Positions 13,567 through 44,282 of a DNA stretch of 60,290 nucleotides are shown one piece after another. The translations under genes and the position numbers were made by a program. The number at the start of each line of letters is the position of its first letter. Within the stretch, counting starts at the first letter, position 1. The notes under the pieces are model-generated. The model was not told where the DNA came from, did no database searches, and was given only the letters and a program-made list of their open reading frames with translations. Source of the DNA: Candidatus Roizmanbacteria bacterium CG02_land_8_20_14_3_00_36_15 (GTDB taxonomy: Bacteria > Patescibacteriota > Microgenomatia > UBA1406 > GWC2-37-13); NCBI GenBank assembly GCA_002780795.1, contig PEUF01000039.1, positions 1 to 60,290 on the forward strand. The letters run 5' to 3'.

Positions 13567-14329
13567 TCTCTCATTGCTAATGATTACTAAAAACGGTCAA
13601 GATACGATTGAAAAAAGTTTGCTCTCAGTTATCAAGTGGGTAGATGAAATTGTTATCATCGATGATTGTTCGACGGATAATACAATTAAGAAAGTTAAAA
13701 GTTTAAAGTTAAAAGTTAAAAGTTCCAATTTAAAATTAAAAATTTTTGAGAATCGAGAAGATGATCTAGGTAAACAGAGAATGTTTGGATTGCAAAAATG
13801 CTCCAATAATTGGGTGTTGGTTTTAGATTCGGATGAAGTAGTTTCGGAGAAACTTAAAAGAGAAATTGTTACATTGTTACATTGTTACATTGTTAAATAT
13901 GAAGGTTTTTTTATTCCATTTCAGAATCATTATTTGGGGCGTGGATTAAAACACGGTGGGGAAAGCTACAAAAAGCTGGTTCTGTTTAAAAAAGATAAAG
14001 TCATTATAAAACCTGGGTTAGTAAATGAAAGGTTTGAAATGCCATCAAAAAAAATTGAAACTTTAAAAAATAAAATTTATCATCATTCATATCGTTCGAT
14101 TAGCCAGATGTATAAAAAATTTACCGACTATGGTGTCCGCAACGCGAAGGAAAAAGTCCGAAAAGGAGAATCAACTTCACTAAAAAAAATATTCTTATAT
14201 CCGTTGCATATGTTTTGGGCAAGATTCATTAAAGACAAGGGTTATAAAGATGGGTTGTTTCGGATACCGTTAGATATTGGGTTTGCTTATATGGAGTTCT
14301 TAAGTTATTTTTTAATGGTGTTCTTATGA
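13556..14329 (+). CDS. family 2 glycosyltransferase
   Basis: 258 residues, GT-A fold: LSLLMITKNGQDTIEKSL, IIDDCSTDNT, and the DSDE metal-binding signature (VLVLDSDEVV). It belongs to the WaaE/KdtX-like group that adds sugars to lipid-linked cores. I chose the ATG at 13556 because it begins directly at the first strand; an upstream in-frame ATG at 13532 adds nothing recognisable. Two DNA-repeat inserts lie inside: KVKSLKLKVKSSNLKLK, and VTLLHCYIV from an ATTGTTAC tract. Confidence 0.85.
   Translation: MENNLSLLMITKNGQDTIEKSLLSVIKWVDEIVIIDDCSTDNTIKKVKSLKLKVKSSNLKLKIFENREDDLGKQRMFGLQKCSNNWVLVLDSDEVVSEKLKREIVTLLHCYIVKYEGFFIPFQNHYLGRGLKHGGESYKKLVLFKKDKVIIKPGLVNERFEMPSKKIETLKNKIYHHSYRSISQMYKKFTDYGVRNAKEKVRKGESTSLKKIFLYPLHMFWARFIKDKGYKDGLFRIPLDIGFAYMEFLSYFLMVFL
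13683..13745 (+). repeat. AGTTAAA-type insert in glycosyltransferase
   Basis: Near-perfect heptamer/octamer repeats of AGTTAAAA run in frame between the DDCSTDN motif and the next conserved strand, giving alternating Lys/Val/Leu residues. Confidence 0.75.
13866..13894 (+). repeat. ATTGTTAC octamer repeat in glycosyltransferase
   Basis: Three exact copies of ATTGTTAC plus a partial fourth, in frame. The same unit appears inside asnB at 26348-26410. Confidence 0.8.
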
Positions 14330-17265: not shown

Positions 17266-18362
17266 TTAAAGTTGCATTAGTTCGTGGAAGATATCTCAAT
17301 AATTTTGAAGGTCAAAATTACATTTTTAACAAAAATAATATTAAATTGACGGCGATTTCTTCACTAAAGCCGCTTGACGATCAATTTCCGTTTCCCGTCA
17401 TTAAATTACCTTCACTGGCTGATTTACAGAATGTCCCTTTTTTAAGTAAACCGCTTAAATTTATTAGTAATAGATTATTGGGTGACTCTCAAATTCTTTT
17501 TGGTCTTGAAAAATTTGCGAATAAATTCGACATCTTTCAAACGGCTGATTCTCATTATTATTATTCATTTCAACTAGCCAACCTCAGAAAGAGAGGTTTG
17601 ATAAAAAAATTAATTTCTACCTCATGGGAAACGATTCCTTTTAACAATGAAACCATTAAACAGAAGAAGTTTATTAAGGAATTTACCCAATCTCAGACCG
17701 ATTTATTTATATGCCATACAAACAGAGCCAAGGATTGTTTGATTAAAGAGGGGATTGGCGAAAATAAAATTGAGGTGATAAAACTGGGCGTAGATATTAA
17801 TCGTTTTAAAAGTCAAAATTCAAAAGTCAAAGATCAAAGTGACAAATTAAAAATCAAAAATATTAAAATCCTGTTTGTCGGAAGATTAGTTAAGGAGAAA
17901 GGATTACCAGATTTACAGGAAGCTATTAAACAAATTGAAAAGTCAAAGTTCAAAAGTCAAAAGTACAAGTTAAAAGTTAAAGTTATTAAAGGAAATATTA
18001 ATTATCGCGAAATGCCAAAAGTTTATCAAGAGGCGGATATTTTTGTTCTTCCTTCAAAAACAACAAAAACCTGGGAAGAACAGTACGGTATGGTTTTGGT
18101 GGAGGCAATGGCATCAGGATTACCAATAGTTGCCTATAATACTGGAGCCATTGCTGAATTAGTCGGCGAGGCCGGTCTATTAATTAAAGAAAGCGATGTT
18201 AATCAGTTGGCGAATTCCATCAAACTTTTAATCGAGAATAGAGATTTGCGATTAAAACTTGGTAAAATTGGTAGAAAGAGAGCGGAAAAATATTTTGACG
18301 TTAGAAAAACCACTTGGAAAATTGGAAAAATATATGAAAATATCGGCCGTAATATTGACTAA
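17262..18362 (+). CDS. family 4 (GT-B) glycosyltransferase
   Basis: 366 residues with a full GT4 domain: IKILFVGRLVKEKGLPDLQEA, DIFVLPS, and YGMVLVEAMASGLPIVAYNTGAIAELV. Two A-rich repeat inserts (FKSQNSKVKDQSDKLKIKN before the GT4 domain and KSKFKSQKYKLKVKV within it) fall in surface loops. It starts in the stop of the previous gene and its 3' end overlaps the next by 29 bp. Confidence 0.88.
   Translation: MIKVALVRGRYLNNFEGQNYIFNKNNIKLTAISSLKPLDDQFPFPVIKLPSLADLQNVPFLSKPLKFISNRLLGDSQILFGLEKFANKFDIFQTADSHYYYSFQLANLRKRGLIKKLISTSWETIPFNNETIKQKKFIKEFTQSQTDLFICHTNRAKDCLIKEGIGENKIEVIKLGVDINRFKSQNSKVKDQSDKLKIKNIKILFVGRLVKEKGLPDLQEAIKQIEKSKFKSQKYKLKVKVIKGNINYREMPKVYQEADIFVLPSKTTKTWEEQYGMVLVEAMASGLPIVAYNTGAIAELVGEAGLLIKESDVNQLANSIKLLIENRDLRLKLGKIGRKRAEKYFDVRKTTWKIGKIYENIGRNID
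17805..17865 (+). repeat. TCAAAAG-type insert (1) in glycosyltransferase
   Basis: Words AAAAGTCAAAATTCAAAAG continue for about 60 bp, in frame, just before the conserved ILFVGRL strand. Confidence 0.7.
17938..17985 (+). repeat. TCAAAAG-type insert (2) in glycosyltransferase
   Basis: AAGTCAAAGTTCAAAAGTC words, in frame, between two conserved segments of the GT4 domain of the same gene. Confidence 0.7.
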
Positions 18363-22733: not shown

Positions 22734-23288
22734 ATGAATATCAGTTTACTAATAATCGGTGTTTTGTTTTTAGTCGTACTTTATTTTATCGGTAGTTATA
22801 ACGCTTTCATTGTCTTAAAAACAAGAATAAAAGAAGCACTGTCGGGAATTGATGTTCAACTTAAAAGGAGAGCTGATCTAATACCCAACTTGGTTGAAAC
22901 TGTAAAAGGTTATGCTAAACACGAAAAAACTGTCTTCGAAAATGTTACTAAAGCAAGGGCGGCTTTATTGAAGGCCGAATCACCTCAAGAAAAAGCAGAA
23001 GCTAATAATCAGCTAAGTTCAGCTTTAAAAACAATGTTTGCCGTGGCCGAAGCTTATCCTCAACTTAAAGCTAATGAAAATTTTCTAGATTTACAGCGAC
23101 AGTTAGAGGATACTGAGGACAAAATTGCTTATTCAAGACAATTTTATAACAGCAATGTTTTGGAGTATAATACTAAAGTTAAGGTCTTTCCTTCTAATTT
23201 AATTGCTAATATGTTTCGTTTTGGGGAGGAGCAATTTTTTGAGGCTGGAGAAGAGGAAAGAAAAAAAGTTGAGGTAAAATTTGAATAG
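22734..23288 (+). CDS. LemA family protein
   Basis: 184 residues: N-terminal membrane helix, then the LemA helical bundle with family motifs ([84 protein letters not shown]). Strong Shine-Dalgarno. LemA is commonly paired with an HtpX protease, as here 2 bp downstream, and is thought to take part in envelope stress handling. Confidence 0.92.
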
Positions 23289-23290
23289 AT

Positions 23291-24190
23291 ATGACAGTTT
23301 ATGATCAGGTAAGCAAAAATAAGCGGCGAACTTTTTTCATATTTTTTATTTTTTTTGTAGTCATTAGTGGTTTTTTTTATCTGTTAGGAAATTTTTTCGA
23401 GTCGCCGACTACGTATTTTGCTTTTGGATTATTATTTTCCATTGCCTCGGGATTTACCTCGTATTTTTTTTCCGATAAAATAATTTTATTTAGTCTAAAT
23501 GCTAAGCCAGGTGATAAAAAAGAATACTTTGATTTTTATACGACGACGGAAAATTTGGCGATAGCCGCCGGTCTGCCAATGCCGAAACTATATGTAATTG
23601 AAGATCAATCTCCTAATGCTCTTGCTACGGGTCGTGACAATAAACATGCCGTCGTCTGTGCTACTACCGGTTTACTGGAAATGCTTAATCGACGCGAACT
23701 TGAAGGAGTCGTTGGTCATGAGCTATCTCATGTCAAAAATTATGATATCTTGATTTCCTCGGTTGTCGCGACATTAGTGGGAATGATAGCTATTGTTTCC
23801 GACTGGATAATGAGGAATATTTGGTGGGGTGGTTTTTCCAGAGAGAATCGAGATCAGGAGGATCGAAATCCGTTAATGATTGTCTTTTTTATTTTGCTTT
23901 TAATAGTTGGTCCGCTCGTAGCGACATTAATTCAATTAGCTATCTCTAGACAGCGGGAGTTTCTAGCCGACTCCAGTAGCGCTCTTTTAACGCGCTATCC
24001 TGAAGGTTTAGCCGAAGCCTTAGAAAAAATTTCAGCTAATCCATATCCACTACGAAATGTCAGTTCCGCCACCGCCCATCTTTTTATCAGCAATCCTTTT
24101 AAAAAAAATAGAACCACTTCATGGATAATTAATCTTTTTAATACTCATCCACCGGTTGAAGAGCGAATAAGGATACTAAGATCAATGTAA
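23291..24190 (+). CDS. htpX: HtpX-like M48 zinc metalloprotease
   Basis: 299 residues with four membrane helices and the catalytic motif VVGHELSHVKN (HExxH); the third zinc ligand is likely the Glu of REFLADSSSALLTRYPEGLAEAL. It degrades damaged membrane proteins. The tail THPPVEERIRIL is the family's typical end. Co-transcribed with lemA. Confidence 0.93.
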   Translation: MTVYDQVSKNKRRTFFIFFIFFVVISGFFYLLGNFFESPTTYFAFGLLFSIASGFTSYFFSDKIILFSLNAKPGDKKEYFDFYTTTENLAIAAGLPMPKLYVIEDQSPNALATGRDNKHAVVCATTGLLEMLNRRELEGVVGHELSHVKNYDILISSVVATLVGMIAIVSDWIMRNIWWGGFSRENRDQEDRNPLMIVFFILLLIVGPLVATLIQLAISRQREFLADSSSALLTRYPEGLAEALEKISANPYPLRNVSSATAHLFISNPFKKNRTTSWIINLFNTHPPVEERIRILRSM

Positions 24191-24277: not shown

Positions 24278-26980
24278 ATGTGCGGAATTGCTGGTTTCTA
24301 TGGTTTTAGAAATGACAATTTAATAAAAAAGATTTCCAAGCAACTAGCCCATCGTGGACCAGACGGCGAGGGTGATTATCTTAGTGACAAGGTTAGTCTT
24401 CTTAATCGGCGTTTAGCGACTATTGATATTAAACGAGGGGACCAGCCGATTTTTAATGAAGATAGGTCGAATGTTGTCGTTTATAACGGGGAGATATATA
24501 ATTTTTGGCAGTTAAGAAAGGAATTAGAAAGATATGGCCATCTATTTAAGACTGAATCCGACACTGAGGTAATCGTCCATAGTTATGAGCAATGGAAAGA
24601 TAATTGTTTTGATCGTTTTAACGGCATGTTTGCCATCGCTCTTTATGATATAAAAAATGATAAGTTGGTGTTGGCTAGAGATCATTTTGGGATAAAACCG
24701 TTATATTTCTCATTATTTAGCGAGTCTCGACAGCAGATTTCTCACTCCAGTGGGTTCCCCCGCGCCAGACGCGGGCATCCCAAGTCGTTCGAAACGGATG
24801 TTTTCGACTCCCATAAATTAATATTTTCTTCAGAAATTAAACCCATCCTTGAATCAGGATTAATTAAAAAAAAACCAAATGACAAAACTATCTATCGTTA
24901 TTTGAGATATCGCGTTCACGACGATCAAAAAGAAACTTTTTTTAATGGGATATATCGGTTGATGCCAGGAGAGATGATGATAGTTCAAAGTTCAAAGTTC
25001 AAATTTCAAAGTTTTACAAAACTTAGAGAGGATCTAATCAAGATAAGAAAAACTAAGAAATTAGGAAATCGGGATGTTGAGAAATTTAGAAAAAAGTTAA
25101 TTGAAGCGATTCGCTTGCGATTAATTTCCGAAGTTCCTGTTGGTACTTGTTTATCGGGTGGTCTTGATTCTTCAACGGTTGTTTCGGCGGTTAATAAATT
25201 ACTTAAGGAAAAGGTTAAAGAATCCCGCTCGGTTGGAAAAATTCAGCAAACATTTTCCGCCGTATTTCCGGAGGGAAGCAATGATGAAGAAAGATATGTT
25301 AATGAAGTTTTAGAGTCTATAAAGTTAGAAAGTCATAAAGTGAAACCTAAGCCTGAAGAATTTTTTAATGAAGTTAAAGAATTTATTAAAACTCAGGAAG
25401 AACCAACGATAAGTACCGGTCCATACGCCCAGTATAAAGTAATGCAGGAAGCTTCAAAACACGTCACCGTTCTTTTGGATGGCCAAGGAGCTGATGAGAT
25501 GATGGCGGGATATCTACCCTATTATTTTGTGTATTTTCGCCAACTGGCAAAAGAAAAAAAATATTTTAAGTTAATAAAGGAACTATTTTTGTCTTACGAT
25601 ATTTTAGCAACGACTTTAATTAAACATTTAGTTAAAGTTTTTGGCTTTAAAAAAGAAATTAATGCAAACGATCTGCTTAATGAAAAATTTTTTAATCAAT
25701 TTAAAGAAGAAAAATTCCTTACAATTGACGATAATTTAAAAAAACGGTTAATTGAGGATATCTTTTATAACAGCCTGCCTTCTTTGTTACGCTACGAAGA
25801 TCGCAACTCGATGAGATATTCGATCGAAGGACGCGTGCCTTTTTTAGATTTTAATTTGTTGCGATATTTATTTAATTTAAGTGATAATGCAATTATCAAT
25901 CTGGGATGGAATAAAAATATATTGCGTCAATCAATGAAACAATTGCTTCCCGAACTGATTTTAAAGAGAAGAAATAAAATTGGTTTTACTACACCAGAAT
26001 ACCAGTGGTTTATGAGAATGAAAAATAAAATTTATCAGATATTTTTGTCTGAAAGTTTTGTTAAAAGAAAGTATTTTAATCAACCAGAGGTTTTAAAAGC
26101 TTTTCAATCATTTATTGAAGGGAAAGTTGATGATACGATGGTGTTTTGGAGGATGTTAAATCTAGAGCTATGGTTGAGGATATTCTTTGATTCAAAACCA
26201 ATTAAAAAATTAACACATTCAAAGATTAACATATTTGGGGAGGCAAATGAGGGAAAGAAACTGGAGGTTGAGGTTGAAGGAAAAAAATATTTAAGATATC
26301 CGGTAAAAACGGAAGTTTTTAAAAAAGGAGATAACATTTCAGACGAAATTGTTACTTTGTTACATGGTTACATTGCTAATAACAATGAAACAATGAGACA
26401 ATGTAACAATAAAAAATGGTTTTTGATTATCTCGGAAAAAATTGTGGCAATTGCTCAAGGTCGATCATACTTTCTTTGGGAGATTAAACCGAATTTTTGG
26501 GCAAAATTACTGTCTAAATACGTTACAAAAACTCCATATGGAATCGGTTTGGGCAGTCCTTGGACGATGCAACTGGCGATTAGGGAAATTGGGGTGATTT
26601 GGGTGATAGTGGCAGCGATAATCGCAGGAATTACCAAGCCTTTGGGTATAAAGGGTGTGTTTTATCGGATTGCCGGCGAAACGGTAAGATCGATTGATGG
26701 GCCGACAGAATATTCGCTTTATCCTTCAAATGTTTCTGCTAAACTGGGACCGAAGGATCCGCAATTAGTCGCCAAAAAAATTGCGGAGCAAGTCCAAAAT
26801 TCAAAGTTCAAAGTTCAAAATTTCTTGGGTGTTGCTATTATCGACGCCAATGATCTGGGTCAAAAAGTTCTAGGTAATTCAACAAACATTTCTAATGAAA
26901 TAATCGAAGATATTTTTAAAGATAATCCAATGGGACAAGCAGATGAGCAGACGCCGATAGTTATAGTATTTAGTATTTAG
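24278..26980 (+). CDS. asnB: asparagine synthase fused to CofE-like gamma-glutamyl ligase domain
   Basis: 900 residues. Residues 1-215 are a class II glutaminase with Cys2 nucleophile (MCGIAGF). Residues 255-630 are the ATP-pyrophosphatase synthase domain (CLSGGLDSSTV; EGRVPFLD). From about 660 to 900 it matches the F420-0:L-glutamate ligase-like (CofE) family: WFLIISEKIVAIAQGRS, TPYGIGLGSPWTMQLAIREIG, GETVRSIDGPTEY, AIIDANDLGQKVLG and DNPMGQADEQTPI. The first half makes asparagine or amidates another carboxylate; the second would form gamma-glutamyl amides. Four DNA elements are inserted in frame (a GC-rich hairpin near residue 165 and three repeats). It leads the cluster with NAD synthase, glutamine synthetase and GatCAB. 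Confidence 0.88.
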   Translation: MCGIAGFYGFRNDNLIKKISKQLAHRGPDGEGDYLSDKVSLLNRRLATIDIKRGDQPIFNEDRSNVVVYNGEIYNFWQLRKELERYGHLFKTESDTEVIVHSYEQWKDNCFDRFNGMFAIALYDIKNDKLVLARDHFGIKPLYFSLFSESRQQISHSSGFPRARRGHPKSFETDVFDSHKLIFSSEIKPILESGLIKKKPNDKTIYRYLRYRVHDDQKETFFNGIYRLMPGEMMIVQSSKFKFQSFTKLREDLIKIRKTKKLGNRDVEKFRKKLIEAIRLRLISEVPVGTCLSGGLDSSTVVSAVNKLLKEKVKESRSVGKIQQTFSAVFPEGSNDEERYVNEVLESIKLESHKVKPKPEEFFNEVKEFIKTQEEPTISTGPYAQYKVMQEASKHVTVLLDGQGADEMMAGYLPYYFVYFRQLAKEKKYFKLIKELFLSYDILATTLIKHLVKVFGFKKEINANDLLNEKFFNQFKEEKFLTIDDNLKKRLIEDIFYNSLPSLLRYEDRNSMRYSIEGRVPFLDFNLLRYLFNLSDNAIINLGWNKNILRQSMKQLLPELILKRRNKIGFTTPEYQWFMRMKNKIYQIFLSESFVKRKYFNQPEVLKAFQSFIEGKVDDTMVFWRMLNLELWLRIFFDSKPIKKLTHSKINIFGEANEGKKLEVEVEGKKYLRYPVKTEVFKKGDNISDEIVTLLHGYIANNNETMRQCNNKKWFLIISEKIVAIAQGRSYFLWEIKPNFWAKLLSKYVTKTPYGIGLGSPWTMQLAIREIGVIWVIVAAIIAGITKPLGIKGVFYRIAGETVRSIDGPTEYSLYPSNVSAKLGPKDPQLVAKKIAEQVQNSKFKVQNFLGVAIIDANDLGQKVLGNSTNISNEIIEDIFKDNPMGQADEQTPIVIVFSI
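24750..24815 (+). repeat. GC-rich palindromic insert in asnB
   Basis: Contains the inverted arms CCCGCG/CGCGGG and the block GCATCCCAAGTCG, which reappears at the 3' end of dedA (near 49487). Translated as an Arg/Ser-rich loop (SSGFPRARRGHPKS) inside the glutaminase domain, where relatives have a short turn. Confidence 0.7.
24983..25012 (+). repeat. TTCAAAG heptamer insert in asnB (1)
   Basis: GTTCAAA repeated three times and then degenerate, in frame as QSSKFKFQS, at the linker between glutaminase and synthase domains. Confidence 0.8.
26348..26410. repeat. ATTGTTAC repeat with inverted partner in asnB
   Basis: Left half ATTGTTACTTTGTTACATGG is answered by an inverted right half ending CAATGTAACAAT. 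It is in frame within the start of the CofE-like domain. Confidence 0.7.
26791..26822 (+). repeat. TTCAAAG heptamer insert in asnB (2)
   Basis: Runs of TTCAAAG in frame as QNSKFKVQN, in a loop of the CofE-like domain just before FLGVAIIDANDLG. Confidence 0.8.
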
Positions 26981-26988
26981 TTTTTTTT

Positions 26989-27930
26989 ATGAAAATACTT
27001 AATAAAAGTCAGTGCAAAAAATTTGTTAATCTGGCTGTTGATAAACTTGGAAAATATATTAAGAAAAATAATCTTAAAGGAATAACAACCGGCATTTCTG
27101 GCGGAATTGACTCGGCGCTAGTGGCGATTATCGGAAAAAAATCAATTGATCGGTTAAACAATCATGGTTATCGATCGAGTTTTAAATATTATTACCTGGA
27201 CTGTCAAAGCGAAGAGGAAGATTTAAAAAAAGCCAAAAGTCTGGCGAAAAAATTTGCGTTCAAATTGGAAATTCTTGACTTAAATCGGTGGTATCTCAAC
27301 TCGCCACTTTTAGAATCGATTCCTAAAAATCATCCAAAAGAAAAGATTGCTCAGGGAAATATTAAAGCTCGGATACGGATGATTAGTTTATACCAAACGG
27401 CTTTGTTAAATAACTATATCTATCTTGATTCTGATGATCTTTCGGAAAAATGGATGGGGTTTTGGACCAGGCATGGTGATGAAGGAGATGTTAAAATTAT
27501 CCAAGAGGTGACCAAGACGGAGGTTTATGACCTCGGAGAGTATTTGGGCGCTCCCGAACCGATTTTATCCGCCGATCCCGGAGACGGTTTAAATGTAACT
27601 AAAGAAAGCTATGCCCACGACCAACTGGGTTTAAAATATATTTACATTGAATATATAATAGGCCGATTTATCAGCGAAGGATTTGATTACAACGGGTCAT
27701 TTAGTCAGCTATATACTGAGAAATGTCAAAATTTAATAAAATCAATCTCCGTGGAAATAAAGAAACCGAAATCAACGATTAAAAAAATTATTAATCAGGC
27801 TTTAAAAACAGCCTACAAAAGGAAGTATGGCGATTACGCGGTAAATTTACTTCCAGATCGAAAAGAGTTTGGTTTTTTTGAGGTTGGCCGTCAAGAATAT
27901 AATCAGAAATATCTGAAGATAATAGGATAG
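26989..27930 (+). CDS. NAD+ synthase-like amidotransferase (ammonia-dependent type)
   Basis: 313 residues of the NAD synthase/GMP synthase ATP-pyrophosphatase family with P-loop TGISGGIDSALVA and AQGNIKARIRMISLYQ. It converts nicotinate adenine dinucleotide to NAD+ with ammonia, and no glutaminase domain is attached. Where most NadE proteins have GTGNKSE, this one has LDSDDLSEKWMGFWTRHGDEGDV, a clear divergence in the substrate loop. It lies 8 bp after asnB and directly before glutamine synthetase, so it may amidate a different acid; NAD synthesis remains the best guess. Confidence 0.75.
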   Translation: MKILNKSQCKKFVNLAVDKLGKYIKKNNLKGITTGISGGIDSALVAIIGKKSIDRLNNHGYRSSFKYYYLDCQSEEEDLKKAKSLAKKFAFKLEILDLNRWYLNSPLLESIPKNHPKEKIAQGNIKARIRMISLYQTALLNNYIYLDSDDLSEKWMGFWTRHGDEGDVKIIQEVTKTEVYDLGEYLGAPEPILSADPGDGLNVTKESYAHDQLGLKYIYIEYIIGRFISEGFDYNGSFSQLYTEKCQNLIKSISVEIKKPKSTIKKIINQALKTAYKRKYGDYAVNLLPDRKEFGFFEVGRQEYNQKYLKIIG

Positions 27931-27998
27931 GGTTGATAAATTATATTATTTTGTTAATATGTCTCCAATGGTTATTTTTTAAAAATTTTTTTAAAAAT

Positions 27999-29345
27999 AT
28001 GGCCAAAGAGAAAATAAATGAGATTCTATCAATAGCAAAAAAGGATAAAATTGCTTTCATCGATCTTCAGTTTAGCGATTTTTTAGGAAACATTAAAAGT
28101 TCGACAATTCCGGTATACAATTTAAAAGATGCGTTAACTTTTGGTGTTTGGATCGACGGATCTTCAGTTGAAGGATTTGCCAGAATTCACGAATCAGATA
28201 TGTATCTAAAGCCTGATCCTGATACTTATGCTATTTTGCCCTGGAGAGATCATCTGGAAGGCGGGAAAGTAGCCCGTTTAATATGCGACGTCTATAAGCC
28301 GAATCATCAACCTTTTGAAGGTGATCCTCGTTATATCTTAAAAAAAGTTCTGCATGAAGCAAACTCATTAGGATTTGAGTATTTTACCGGCCCAGAATGT
28401 GAATTTTTTCTTTTCCCTAAAGACGAACGGGGGAATATTTTGAACTACTCTCAAGGAAATGGATTTTATTTTAATTTAATTATGGATCAAGCTTACACTA
28501 TAAAACGAGAAATTATGGAAGGTTTAAAAATGATGAGAATTGATATAGAGACAAGTACTCATGAAGTGGCTGATAGGCAACATGAGATAGATATTAAGTA
28601 TGGTAATGCTCTTAAAACCGCCGATAATACCATTACTTTAAAGATGGCGACAAAGTTCATTGCGTTTAAACATAATTTTCACGCTACCTTTATGGCAAAG
28701 CCTTTCTTTGGTATAAATGGGAACGGTATGCATACACACCAAAGTCTTTGGAAAAATAAAAAAAATTCATTTTACGACTCAAGAGATAAATATAATTTAT
28801 CAAAGACAGCTTATCAGTTTTTAGCAGGACAGTTAAAATACGTGCGAGAAATAGCGGGCGTATTTGCTCCTACAGTTAATTCATATAAAAGATTGACGCC
28901 AGGCTATGAAGCACCGGTTTATGCTTGCTGGGGAAGAATAAACCGATCAGCCCTTATTAGAGTACCGCAAGTATCAAAAGGCCTCGAAAGTAAATCGATT
29001 AGATTAGAAATCCGATGCCCGGATCCATCCAGCAATCCATACCTTACTTTTGCTGTTTTATTAAAAACTGGTCTTGAAGGAATAAAGAAGGGACTCAAGG
29101 CGCCTAAACCTGTTGAAGAAAATTTATTTGAATTTGATGACGAAAAATTAAAAAAATTTTATATTAGCAAACTACCAGCCAGCTTGGATGAAGCAATTGG
29201 TGAAATTGAAAAAGGTAAAGTCGTTCGTGAAGTCTTCGGCGAACATACTTGGAAAAGGTATATCGAAGCGAAGAAAAAAGAGTGGGATAAGTTTCGTATT
29301 GCAGTCACCGATTGGGAAACAGATAGGTACTTAAAGAATATTTAA
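27999..29345 (+). CDS. glnA: glutamine synthetase, type I
   Basis: 448 residues from the chosen ATG at 27999; a TTG-started extension to 27933 is hydrophobic and not family-like. Beta-grasp and catalytic motifs are present: FTGPECEFFLFP, HEVADRQHEIDIKYGNAL, NGNGMHTHQSLW, and NRSALIRVPQVSKGLESKSIRLEIRCPDPSSNPYL. It makes glutamine from glutamate, ammonia and ATP. The adenylylation-type loop NLYDLP is not seen (ENLFEFDDEKL instead). Glutamine is the amide donor for AsnB upstream and GatCAB downstream. Confidence 0.93.
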   Translation: MAKEKINEILSIAKKDKIAFIDLQFSDFLGNIKSSTIPVYNLKDALTFGVWIDGSSVEGFARIHESDMYLKPDPDTYAILPWRDHLEGGKVARLICDVYKPNHQPFEGDPRYILKKVLHEANSLGFEYFTGPECEFFLFPKDERGNILNYSQGNGFYFNLIMDQAYTIKREIMEGLKMMRIDIETSTHEVADRQHEIDIKYGNALKTADNTITLKMATKFIAFKHNFHATFMAKPFFGINGNGMHTHQSLWKNKKNSFYDSRDKYNLSKTAYQFLAGQLKYVREIAGVFAPTVNSYKRLTPGYEAPVYACWGRINRSALIRVPQVSKGLESKSIRLEIRCPDPSSNPYLTFAVLLKTGLEGIKKGLKAPKPVEENLFEFDDEKLKKFYISKLPASLDEAIGEIEKGKVVREVFGEHTWKRYIEAKKKEWDKFRIAVTDWETDRYLKNI

Positions 29346-29363: not shown

Positions 29364-29675
29364 ATGAAAAAGAAGAGTAAGAAAATTATTCTCTCAAGAC
29401 AAGAGATCCTTCATCTAGCTAAATTAGCAAAACTACGTCTAACAGAAAATGAAGTGCAAAAGTTTCAAAAACAACTTTCAGCCATCGTAGATTATTTTAG
29501 TAAACTTAATGAAGTAAATACAGATAATGTTGAACCAGTGAGCCAAATTACGGAACTAGTGAACGAAAACGTTGATGATGAAATTAATTCTATACGAATA
29601 CTTTCGTTAGAAGAGACTTTAAAGAACTCAAAATCCAAAAATAATGATTTTTTTAAAGTAAAATCAATTTTTTAG
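29364..29675 (+). CDS. gatC: Asp/Glu-tRNA amidotransferase subunit C
   Basis: 103 residues. After a Lys-rich start come the GatC helices: LSRQEILHLAKLAKLRLTENEVQKFQKQLSAIVDYFSKLNEVNTDNVEPVSQ. It clamps GatA to GatB. First of the contiguous gatC-gatA-gatB set. Confidence 0.93.
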   Translation: MKKKSKKIILSRQEILHLAKLAKLRLTENEVQKFQKQLSAIVDYFSKLNEVNTDNVEPVSQITELVNENVDDEINSIRILSLEETLKNSKSKNNDFFKVKSIF

Positions 29676-29687
29676 CAAATTTTAGTC

Positions 29688-31112
29688 ATGAATCTATCTA
29701 ATTTAACCATAAAAGAGGCAACGTTAGGATTAAAGAAAAAAAAGTTTAGTTCGAATCAATTAGTAAAAGCTTGTTTAGATAAAATAAAGAAAGTTGAAAA
29801 AAAATTAAACGCTTTTATTACTATCAATGAAAATGGGGCGATCGATCAAGCAAACAACTGTGATTTATATTTTAAAAAGTTTGGCGAAGGTATCTTCGAA
29901 AAAAAACCGCTTTTAGGTATACCGATTGCAATCAAAGATCTTTTTTCGACCAAGGATTTGAAAACAACCGCCGGTTCAATTATTATCAATAAATATATTC
30001 CTCCTTTTGATGCCACAGTAGTAAAAAAATTAAAAAATGCTGGAGCGATCATTGTTGGTAAAACAAACGAAGATGCTTGGGGTCATGGATCTTCAGGTGA
30101 AAATTCTGACCATGGACCAACCAGAAATCCGTATAATTTAGAGAGAGTTCCTGGAGGTTCTAGTAGTGGTTCAGGAGCGGCCGTTGCCTCGGGAGAGTGT
30201 TTTATGGCTACAGGTACCGATACAGGAAGTTCGGTTAGATTACCGGCAGCTTATTGTAATTTAGTTGGGATAAAACCTACTTATGGAAGAGTTTCTCGTT
30301 ATGGAATTATTGCCATGGCTTCTTCATTTGATACCGTTGGACATTTGACAAAAACGGTTTATGATAATGCTTTGACTTTAGAGATAACTGCTGGTAAAGA
30401 TTCTTATGACGCGACGACGGTACCAAAAGATGTACCAAAATACACTCATTATCTCGAAAAAAGTATTGAAGGGTTAAAAATTGGTATTCCCGAAGAATAT
30501 TTTATTAGCGGAATCGATGAGAAAGTCGAAAATAAAATTCTATCAGCAATTAAACAGTTGCAAAAATTAGGAGGTAAAGTTAATAAAATTTCTTTACCGC
30601 ATACAGAATATGCCATGGCAACTTATTATATATTAGTCCCCTCAGAAATTAGCTCTAATTTGTCTAAATTTGATGGAATAAGATACGGAGATGAACGCGA
30701 ACTATTTGGGGATGAAGCAAAAAGAAGGATTATGTTAGGCACATATACTTTATCTTCAGGGTATTATGATGCATATTATTTAAAAGCAGCTAAAGTAAGG
30801 ACTTTAGTTAAACGCGATTTTGAAGAGGCTTTTAAAAAAGTCGATGTTTTGATTGCGCCATCGTCTCCAACTCTACCATTTAAAATTGGAGAAAAAGCTG
30901 CCGATCCTTTGCAAATGTATCTTTCAGATATCTTTCTGTGTCCTGTTAATCTTGCTGGAATGCCTAGTTTAAACGTTCCCATGGGTTTTATTGATGGACT
31001 TCCGGTTGGTATGCAGATTATTGGACAGCAATTCAGTGAAAAATTACTCTATCAAGTGGCTTATAAATATGAAGAAGCAACTCAATATTATAAGATTAGC
31101 CCAAAAATATAA
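29688..31112 (+). CDS. gatA: Asp/Glu-tRNA amidotransferase subunit A
   Basis: 474-residue amidase. The Ser-cisSer-Lys triad is in place: Lys in GIPIAIKDLF, cis-Ser in TGTDTGSSVRLPAAYC, and the signature VPGGSSSGSGAAVASGE. It hydrolyses glutamine and channels ammonia to GatB, which amidates Glu-tRNA-Gln and/or Asp-tRNA-Asn. Normal length; no repeat insert seen. Confidence 0.96.
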   Translation: MNLSNLTIKEATLGLKKKKFSSNQLVKACLDKIKKVEKKLNAFITINENGAIDQANNCDLYFKKFGEGIFEKKPLLGIPIAIKDLFSTKDLKTTAGSIIINKYIPPFDATVVKKLKNAGAIIVGKTNEDAWGHGSSGENSDHGPTRNPYNLERVPGGSSSGSGAAVASGECFMATGTDTGSSVRLPAAYCNLVGIKPTYGRVSRYGIIAMASSFDTVGHLTKTVYDNALTLEITAGKDSYDATTVPKDVPKYTHYLEKSIEGLKIGIPEEYFISGIDEKVENKILSAIKQLQKLGGKVNKISLPHTEYAMATYYILVPSEISSNLSKFDGIRYGDERELFGDEAKRRIMLGTYTLSSGYYDAYYLKAAKVRTLVKRDFEEAFKKVDVLIAPSSPTLPFKIGEKAADPLQMYLSDIFLCPVNLAGMPSLNVPMGFIDGLPVGMQIIGQQFSEKLLYQVAYKYEEATQYYKISPKI

Positions 31113-31120
31113 GTACTTCT

Positions 31121-32584
31121 ATGAATAACTATATACCCGTTATAGGATTAGAGATTCATGTAGAACTAAAGACTAAAAGTAAGATGTTCTGTGGTTGTCC
31201 GGCTGATCATTTTGCCAAGAAGCCTAATTCAATCTGTTGTCCTGTATGTTTAGGACTTCCCGGCGCATTGCCAGTTCCTAATAAAAAAGCGATAGAATGG
31301 ACAATTTTATTGGGAAAAACCTTAGGTTGTGCTATCAACAAAGTTTCCAAGTTTGATCGGAAACATTATTTTTACCCCGACCTGCCGAAGGGATACCAGA
31401 TTAGTCAGTATGATGAACCGATAGCCACGAAAGGAAAACTTTCGTTGCAAATTCAAAGTTCAAAGTTTAAAGTTCAAAATGACAGTTCAAAATTAAAAAA
31501 TGAAGAAAAAACATTCAGAATTCACCGTGTCCATCTGGAAGAAGATACCGGGAAACTAATCCATAAAGGGAATGAAACATTGATTGACTTTAACCGCTCT
31601 GGGGTACCTCTGGTAGAAATTGTCACCGAGCCGGATTTTGATAATGCCGACGATGTCAAAAGATTTTTGGAAGAGTTACAAGTAATCGTTCGCTATCTGG
31701 GTATTTCCGACGCGGACATGGAAAAAGGAAGCATGAGGCTCGAACCAAATATTTCGGTTCGAGAAATCCCAAATCCAAAATCTCAAATTCCAAACATATC
31801 CAAATTACCAATTACTAATTACCAATTACCGAAATATAAAGTTGAGGTAAAAAACATTAACTCATTTCGTTTTGTAAAACAGGCGATAGAGTATGAGATA
31901 GAAAGACAGACTACTTTGTTGGAAAAAGGAGAAACACCGAAACAAGAAACGCGCGGTTTTAATTCAAATAAGCAGATTACCTATAGTCAAAGATCCAAAG
32001 AAGAAGCACATGATTACCGATATTTTCCTGAGCCTGATATTCCACCGATGATTTTTAATGATGATTGGTTAAAACAGATAGAGAAGCAGATACCCGAATT
32101 ACCTCAGGCGAAACTAGAAAGATTCGTTAAAGATTACTCCCTTAAATTTTCTGACGCTTTTATACTCACACGAGATAAAAAACTTAGTAATTACTTTGAG
32201 CAAGTTAATTCAAAATTTAAAATTCAAAATTCAAAGTCTAAATTAAAAATTAAAAATTATTCTCAGTCAATTATTAACTTGATTATTAATAACAAACTGT
32301 CAAAAACTCTAACTATTGGGGAGTTCGTCAATAAAGTTATCGAACTACTGGCGCCAAAAGAAACCGATGAAAAATTACTGGGTGCGACAATTACTCGGAT
32401 AATCGAAACTAACAAGAAAGTTGTTGATGATTATAAATCTGGTAAACAAAATGCAATTATGTTTTTAGTCGGTCAGGTGATGAGAGAGATGAAAGGAAAA
32501 GCAGACGCTAAAATTGTTATTAATATGTTGAAATCCAAAATCCAAAGCTCAAATGTCAGATCATCCCGATTTAATCGGGATTGA
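31121..32584 (+). CDS. gatB: Asp/Glu-tRNA amidotransferase subunit B
   Basis: 487 residues: kinase/amidase core (PVIGLEIHVELKTKSKMFCGC; CPVCLGLPGALPV; VHLEEDTGKLIH; DFNRSGVPLVEIVTEPD) and C-terminal YqeY-like tail (FLVGQVMREMKGKADAKIVINMLK). It activates and amidates the tRNA-bound acid. Four DNA-repeat tracts interrupt or extend it (about residues 109-125, 216-239, 362-380 and the last 17), the most in any gene here. The stop codon itself lies inside the terminal repeat-hairpin. Confidence 0.95.
   Translation: MNNYIPVIGLEIHVELKTKSKMFCGCPADHFAKKPNSICCPVCLGLPGALPVPNKKAIEWTILLGKTLGCAINKVSKFDRKHYFYPDLPKGYQISQYDEPIATKGKLSLQIQSSKFKVQNDSSKLKNEEKTFRIHRVHLEEDTGKLIHKGNETLIDFNRSGVPLVEIVTEPDFDNADDVKRFLEELQVIVRYLGISDADMEKGSMRLEPNISVREIPNPKSQIPNISKLPITNYQLPKYKVEVKNINSFRFVKQAIEYEIERQTTLLEKGETPKQETRGFNSNKQITYSQRSKEEAHDYRYFPEPDIPPMIFNDDWLKQIEKQIPELPQAKLERFVKDYSLKFSDAFILTRDKKLSNYFEQVNSKFKIQNSKSKLKIKNYSQSIINLIINNKLSKTLTIGEFVNKVIELLAPKETDEKLLGATITRIIETNKKVVDDYKSGKQNAIMFLVGQVMREMKGKADAKIVINMLKSKIQSSNVRSSRFNRD
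31447..31498 (+). repeat. TTCAAAG insert in gatB (1)
   Basis: AATTCAAAGTTCAAAGTTTAAAG continues in frame as QSSKFKVQNDSSKLKNE, before the conserved RIHRVHLEEDTG motif. Confidence 0.8.
31765..31838 (+). repeat. AATCCAAA insert in gatB (2)
   Basis: AAATCCCAAATCCAAAATC then ACCAATTACTAATTACCAATT words, in frame as NPKSQIPNISKLPITNYQLP, between SVRE and the conserved VEVKNINSFRFV. Confidence 0.8.
32206..32262 (+). repeat. TTCAAAA insert in gatB (3)
   Basis: AATTCAAAATTTAAAATTC words in frame as NSKFKIQNSKSKLKIKN, in the helical tail domain. Confidence 0.75.
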
Positions 32585-44139: not shown

Positions 44140-44282
44140 CAAATTTAAAATTCAAAATGCAAAGTTCAAAATTATCTGTTCGACAAGCTCAAGATCCTGA
44201 GTTTATCGAAGGACAATTCAAAATTCAAAATTTAAAATTTTAAACTGTAACTTTTAATTTTTAACTTTGAACTTTTAACTAT
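44140..44282. repeat. repeat tract and TTCGACAAGCTCA hairpin between topA and pyrG
   Basis: TTCAAAA-type words on the left and mirror-type TTTGAACTTTTAAC words on the right surround a hairpin element at 44179-44210 with arms TTCGACAAGCTCA and TGAGTTTATCGAA. No gene. Confidence 0.7.

Follow-up and report, generated by a model that had tools for sequence, protein, structure and literature searches.

We identified, in a Candidatus Roizmanbacteria genome, a 900-residue open reading frame that joins an asparagine synthase (AsnB) to a divergent domain with the fold of CofE. Our preferred reading, to which we give a probability of roughly 45%, is that the product is a bifunctional enzyme whose two active sites, each forming amides, are flexibly tethered and are coupled by their location and by a shared pool of glutamine and glutamate. 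The window analysed is the whole 60,290-nucleotide stretch, taken from a 1.06-Mb genome that is split over 59 contigs and is 91% complete; genome-level absences reported below rest on incomplete metagenome-assembled genomes.

The AsnB-CofE fusion

24278..26980 (+), AsnB-CofE fusion gene, 900 aa (open reading frame, Pfam, recurrence in relatives)
26198..26236 (+), disordered linker joining the two halves, residues 641-653, pLDDT below 50 in the full-length model

The initial annotation described a continuous 900-residue frame and named both of its halves, and our analysis agrees on both counts. The frame contains no internal stop. Pfam domains occur in the order GATase_7 (residues 44-145, 5e-40), Asn_synthase (residues 269-634, 2.5e-67) and F420_ligase (PF01996; residues 676-842, 8e-7, 29.2 bits against a gathering cut-off of 25). 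PF01996 matches nothing else in the genome, and some relatives score below the gathering cut-off. The AsnB half comprises residues 1-640 and the CofE-fold half residues 663-900, with the disordered linker between them. Because relatives at 52-67% identity encode the same fusion, again in a single open frame, it is real and is the product of neither chance nor assembly error. Within the literature available for searching, no description of an AsnB-CofE fusion or of gamma-glutamyl ligases from the CPR was found.

The AsnB half

24278..24862 (+), class II glutamine amidotransferase (glutaminase) domain, Pfam GATase_7, with catalytic Cys2, R44, N70-G71-E72 and D95, columns conserved in 43 full-length relatives
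25082..26179 (+), Asn_synthase domain (Pfam), with the ATP-pyrophosphatase loop SGGLDSS at residues 293-299

Enzymes of the AsnB family combine glutamine hydrolysis with adenylation. The protein begins with MCGIAGF and carries the class II glutaminase motifs listed above. Cys2, D95, SGGLDSS, K546 and R550 are conserved columns across the 43 full-length fusions, the loop itself being kept in 42-43 of the 43. Arg325 of E. coli AsnB, which we take to be the residue needed for aspartate in the aspartate site, aligns with Ser379; serine occupies this position in 43 of 43 fusions, so that the AsnB substrate may be something other than free aspartate. The arginine is also absent from other AsnB-like proteins, and its replacement does not decide the matter. 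In comparison with AsnB (TIGR01536; PDB 1CT9), the protein shares the catalytic cysteine, the glutaminase motifs, the pyrophosphatase loop and a score above the equivalog cut-off (411.1 bits against 267.1), but it differs in having serine in place of the Asp-binding arginine and in its C-terminal CofE-like domain. Proteins annotated as AsnB can amidate peptidoglycan (mDAP) instead (PMC8554201).

The CofE-like half

26264..26977 (+), CofE-fold domain, residues 663-900 (Pfam PF01996, AlphaFold2 model, Foldseek match to CofE 2PHN/7ULD/2G9I)
26432..26464 (+), SEKIVAIAQGR motif, residues 719-729, equivalent of CofE SSKIVSKAEGR; E720, K721, Q727, G728 and R729 invariant in 43 relatives
26696..26698 (+), Asp807 of IDG, aligned with the CofE Asp of GVDxSN, invariant
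26840..26854 (+), IDAND motif, residues 855-859, Asp856 aligned with Asp150 of A. fulgidus CofE; D856, N858 and D859 invariant
26921..26938 (+), DNPMGQ motif, residues 882-887, equivalent of CofE LVKGK/LMGE; D882, N883, P884, G886 and Q887 invariant

From its sequence alone, the assignment of this half to CofE is weak. A phmmer search of the PDB with the isolated domain gave no match, and a profile of 17 sequences matched there only the A. fulgidus CofE, at E = 0.5 and in two collinear segments. The assignment is backed by the predicted fold. An AlphaFold2 model built from 56 relatives had a pLDDT of 90.4 and a pTM of 0.87, and the sole significant Foldseek matches in the PDB were CofE structures, with 2PHN from A. 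fulgidus at E 2.9e-8, probability 1.0 and a TM of about 0.5. Structural modelling, which the initial annotation had proposed, supports a CofE fold, and all tested catalytic columns are intact in both halves of the window protein.

Since a local hhalign alignment to a single CofE covered only 40 columns, a global profile alignment with CofE/FbiB sequences was used instead. It is collinear; it is also weak in places, with some pairs read by eye across gaps. The paired motifs (fusion/CofE) are SEKIVAIxQGR/SSKIVSKAEGR, IDG...SN/GVDxSN, PKDP/PEDP, IIDANDLGR/VTDTFGR and (N)PMGQ/(V)KGK, and the columns conserved in the 43 full-length fusions are E720, K721, Q727-G-R, D807, N818, D856, N858, D859 and DNPxGQ. 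Within the limits of this alignment, D807 and D856 correspond to the two CofE aspartates that we take to bind metal. The segment following the second aspartate, which in CofE carries residues touching the F420 ring (PMC10861534), is about 35 aa shorter than in CofE. About 25 aa containing a hydrophobic helix pair (a helix hairpin at about residues 761-789) have been added before the first aspartate, that of IDG. The collinear motifs, the shorter F420-side segment and the added helices together indicate that the nucleotide and metal core is partly kept and that the acceptor side has been rebuilt. When the motif is placed on SSKIVSKAEGR, Glu720 and Ile725 stand opposite S40 and K45, two GTP ligands of CofE, and nucleotide use may accordingly differ from that of CofE.

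Compared with CofE itself, the F420-0:gamma-glutamyl ligase (TIGR01916; PDB 2PHN, 7ULD), the domain has the same fold, the same motif order, the equivalents of D150 and of the GVDxSN aspartate, and the C-terminal MG(E/Q), but it falls far under the equivalog cut-off, has a shorter F420 side and an extra helix pair, and comes from a genome that gave no F420 pathway genes above cut-off. FbiB of Mycobacteria, in which a CofE domain is joined to a nitroreductase domain (PMC8498797), likewise places a CofE domain within a fusion protein; here, however, the partner is AsnB, the CofE subfamily is a different one, and the Actinomycetes that bear the fusion also have a CofE/FbiB candidate.

Distribution and history of the fusion

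The survey of other genomes suggested in the initial annotation found the domain in 46 of the 83 genomes of the order and its one-frame fusion to AsnB in 35 of them. In an even sample of the phylum, the domain occurred in 15 of 193 genomes, mainly as standalone genes of about 235-249 aa. Among the best 80 relatives in the named collection, fusions came from Roizmanbacteria, Saccharibacteria, Nomurabacteria, Coriobacteriia and Actinomycetes, and standalone copies from Thermotogota, WOR-3, Bacillota and other Patescibacteria. The fusion is old and is present across several phyla. One genome (G172, L184:6076-7485) has the CofE-like domain fused to adenylate kinase rather than to AsnB, in a protein of 470 aa. 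Another (G013, L152) encodes a further CofE-like protein, about 250 aa long, that is nearer to typical CofE (124.9 bits, below the cut-off).

Three state changes are required on the tree built from 87 CofE domains; we read them as one fusion followed by two losses of the AsnB half, and the AsnB and CofE trees are congruent. These gene trees were made by a quick method with SH-aLRT support, and the CofE root was not inferred, so that the direction of change is an interpretation. In the AsnB tree, the fused AsnBs group together (support 99), with one contig-edge AsnB fragment falling inside the group. Next to this group is the lineage that encodes AsnB and CofE as two adjacent genes. Such separate neighbouring genes, which the initial annotation had set against its own reading, are found in three relatives (G035, G037 and G100). 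The pair in G100 (L187) belongs to another family, and both of its proteins are 59-66% identical to those of G037; this recurrence means that the two genes travel together even when unfused.

In four genomes (G034, G059, G061, G062) CofE is in place and AsnB is missing from both the locus and the genome, and in Actinopolymorpha CofE also stands alone after loss of AsnB. Elsewhere the AsnB half has decayed, and so the second observation that the initial annotation had named as refuting its reading, lost catalytic residues in one half, is also made in relatives: it lacks the catalytic cysteine and the pyrophosphatase loop in Microlunatus parietis (L127) and in an Actinomycetes MAG (L109), and it has lost the loop aspartate in Intrasporangium flavum (L103). 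Every invariant CofE residue is nevertheless kept in these three proteins. Because CofE stays intact beside a lost or decayed AsnB, its function seems not to need AsnB catalysis. The last 70 or so AsnB residues, which adjoin CofE, are still recognisable in L109 and L127, and this hints at a structural role for the remnant.

The initial annotation had proposed a two-step amidation and glutamylation of one product. In such a scheme the CofE half would glutamylate an acceptor and the AsnB half would amidate the new carboxylate, or the reverse, to give a single gamma-glutamyl/amide metabolite. The analogy is with pathways of the N-acetylglutaminylglutamine type, where a peptide ligase works alongside an AsnB-like amidotransferase. 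The age and wide retention of the fusion, the repeated adjacency of the two genes, the intact state of both halves in the window protein and the replacement of the Arg325 equivalent would all suit such a scheme. We nevertheless consider it unlikely: CofE outlives the loss of AsnB, the AsnB half is catalytically dead in L109 and L127 beside an intact CofE, and many standalone CofE-like genes have no adjacent AsnB. The joint reaction is thus not supported, although with both halves intact it keeps some probability for the window protein itself.

Gene neighbourhood

22734..24190 (+), LemA and M48 peptidase, conserved upstream pair (Pfam, synteny)
26989..27930 (+), NadE (Pfam PF02540), same operon, 8 bp after the fusion
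27933..29345 (+), glutamine synthetase GlnA (Pfam PF00120), same operon
29364..32584 (+), amidotransferase genes GatC, GatA and GatB (Pfam), conserved beside the fusion in the family (synteny)

The gene order in the window family is LemA, M48 peptidase, fusion, GatC, GatA, GatB and DnaE, to which NadE and GlnA are added in the window and GlnA in one relative (G005). The asparaginyl-tRNA synthetase gene asnS lies directly 3' of the fusion in G040 and G054 and within the same operon in G066, and asparagine is therefore favoured as the AsnB product. An asnS above the cut-off occurs in 4 of the 83 genomes; since most fusion-bearing genomes are without one, free asparagine is not obviously needed for tRNA charging.

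The neighbours of standalone CofE-like genes, several of them named by eye, showed no consistent functional theme, and included RecA/HU/RNase Y, TonB/ExbBD, uracil-DNA glycosylase, the dcw cluster and RarA. In a Coriobacteriales MAG (L095:2185-6708), the fusion is preceded, at a distance of 16 bp, by another AsnB encoded separately, with genes for a peptidoglycan-binding protein and an NlpC/P60 hydrolase around them. In the related genomes G147 and G204 (L177, L179), a standalone CofE-like gene lies just upstream of what appears by eye to be an mraZ-rsmH-ftsL-PBP division cluster.

Both of these settings would suit a cell-wall enzyme, whose AsnB half would amidate a carboxylate of a peptidoglycan precursor, as LtsA/AsnB does for mDAP, and whose CofE half would add an amino acid to such a precursor. 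The amidation of mDAP by AsnB homologues (PMC8554201) and the predicted hydrophobic helix hairpin in the CofE half are compatible with this role. The other neighbourhoods are unrelated to the cell wall (RecA/HU, TonB, RarA, GatCAB), however, and no Mur-type gene adjoins the fusion in the window family; we regard a cell-wall role as quite improbable.

F420 and folate

The second domain scores 14.5 bits with the CofE equivalog model, against a cut-off of 180.65. No CofE equivalog, CofH or CofD was found above cut-off in its own genome, and CofH and CofD were likewise absent above cut-off from 29 related genomes; the weak CofD matches in these genomes are likely YvcK-like. A separate TIGR01916 match with E < 1e-40 was present in 13 of 13 fusion- or domain-bearing Actinomycetes tested, and 10 of these exceeded the cut-off. 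On these grounds we reject F420 biosynthesis as the role of the second domain, as the initial annotation had also considered probable. In sequence libraries, and in the initial annotation, COG1478/PF01996 domains of this kind bear the name of F420-0:glutamate ligase. For a large set of them the name is probably mistaken, because the subfamily is found where the F420 pathway is missing and, in Actinomycetes, together with a distinct CofE/FbiB candidate.

Another CofE-family protein from a bacterium without F420 genes, CT611 of Chlamydia (FolC2, COG1478), complements an E. coli folC mutant (PMC1971073); we liken it to the CofE half from its description. A FolC2-like folate gamma-glutamyl ligase fused to AsnB could accordingly be envisaged, and the window genome has SHMT and lacks FolC, so the Chlamydia precedent could hold for this species alone. 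Across the order, however, the CofE-like gene and FolC are independent: FolC is present in 27 of the 46 genomes with the domain and in 19 of the 37 without it (Fisher p = 0.52), and in 18 of the 35 fusion genomes. A pattern of FolC absence that appeared suggestive in the first 20 genomes was gone at 83. General replacement of FolC is thus rejected at the order level, and a folate ligase, which unlike CT611 would be AsnB-fused and not tied to FolC loss, is improbable.

Proposed function

In the bifunctional enzyme that we prefer, the AsnB half would hydrolyse glutamine and, with ATP, pass the ammonia to a carboxylate. The acceptor would most likely be free aspartate, giving asparagine for a supply linked to asnS and GatCAB. 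The CofE half would be an active member of a divergent bacterial CofE-fold subfamily. With the help of a nucleoside triphosphate it would activate a carboxylate for coupling to an amino acid, the simplest candidate being the L-glutamate freed by the AsnB half; its acceptor would be neither F420-0 nor, in general, folate. In CofE an acyl phosphate is formed and is then attacked by glutamate (PMC10861534), and if the modelled fold is a guide the amide made here would be a gamma-glutamyl one. The two reactions would be linked by co-location and by the shared pool of glutamine and glutamate, not as obligatory successive steps on one molecule, so that a glutamate-releasing enzyme would be set beside a glutamate-using one, with asparagine and a further amide as products.

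This proposal is favoured by the architecture and the modelled fold, by the conservation of catalytic columns in the 43 fusions, by the reading of a single fusion from congruent trees, by the adjacency of the unfused genes, by the neighbouring GlnA and GatCAB genes and by asnS in three operons. The survival of CofE where AsnB is lost or decayed and the evidence against an F420 role also speak for it. Against it stand Ser379 in place of Arg325, the AsnB relatives that amidate peptidoglycan, the low count of asnS (4/83) and the replacement of S40 and K45. The changes at the nucleotide site (S40 to Glu, K45 to Ile by alignment) could also be taken to mean that the CofE half has no catalysis of its own and serves AsnB in regulation or dimerisation, but the strong invariance of its acidic and Asn residues, its free-standing genes in several phyla and its persistence after AsnB is gone make this improbable.

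Beyond the bifunctional protein itself, we tentatively suggest that this widespread subfamily of the CofE fold, which stands alone in several bacterial phyla and is joined to AsnB in Patescibacteria and Actinomycetota, produces a so far undescribed metabolite or cofactor with an amide link, perhaps a gamma-glutamyl one. AsnB, acting on glutamine at the same site, would supply it with glutamate or with amide nitrogen. Through the fusion, a candidate amide ligase is tied to glutamine-dependent amidation in organisms with reduced genomes, and carriers among the Actinomycetes that can be cultured (Terrabacter, Catenulispora, Flexivirga) make the product findable.

Inserted elements and repeats

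24716..24812 (+), insert of a GC-rich hairpin element of dispersed type, in frame within the AsnB half, residues 147-178, about 30 disordered residues
24981-25010, 26790-26819, 2497-2526, 13692-13728, 17939-17961, 31449-31478 and 44259-44281, AAGTTCA repeat sites

The GC-rich insert (hairpin z = -1.9) has a model pLDDT below 50 at residues 150-177. At most of the positions tested it is filled in 1-3 of 43 relatives, so it is nearly absent from them, and partial copies of the element occur in three other contigs of the same genome (C42, C49, C8). It recalls the Rickettsia palindromic elements. In relatives, a loop of CofE contains other peptides that derive from repeats. AAGTTCA, a tandem repeat of 7 bp, occurs at scattered places in the window (23 matches against 0.39 expected). 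It is translated in frame within the fusion gene, as QSSKFKFQSF and VQNSKFKVQNF, and apparently also inside gatB.
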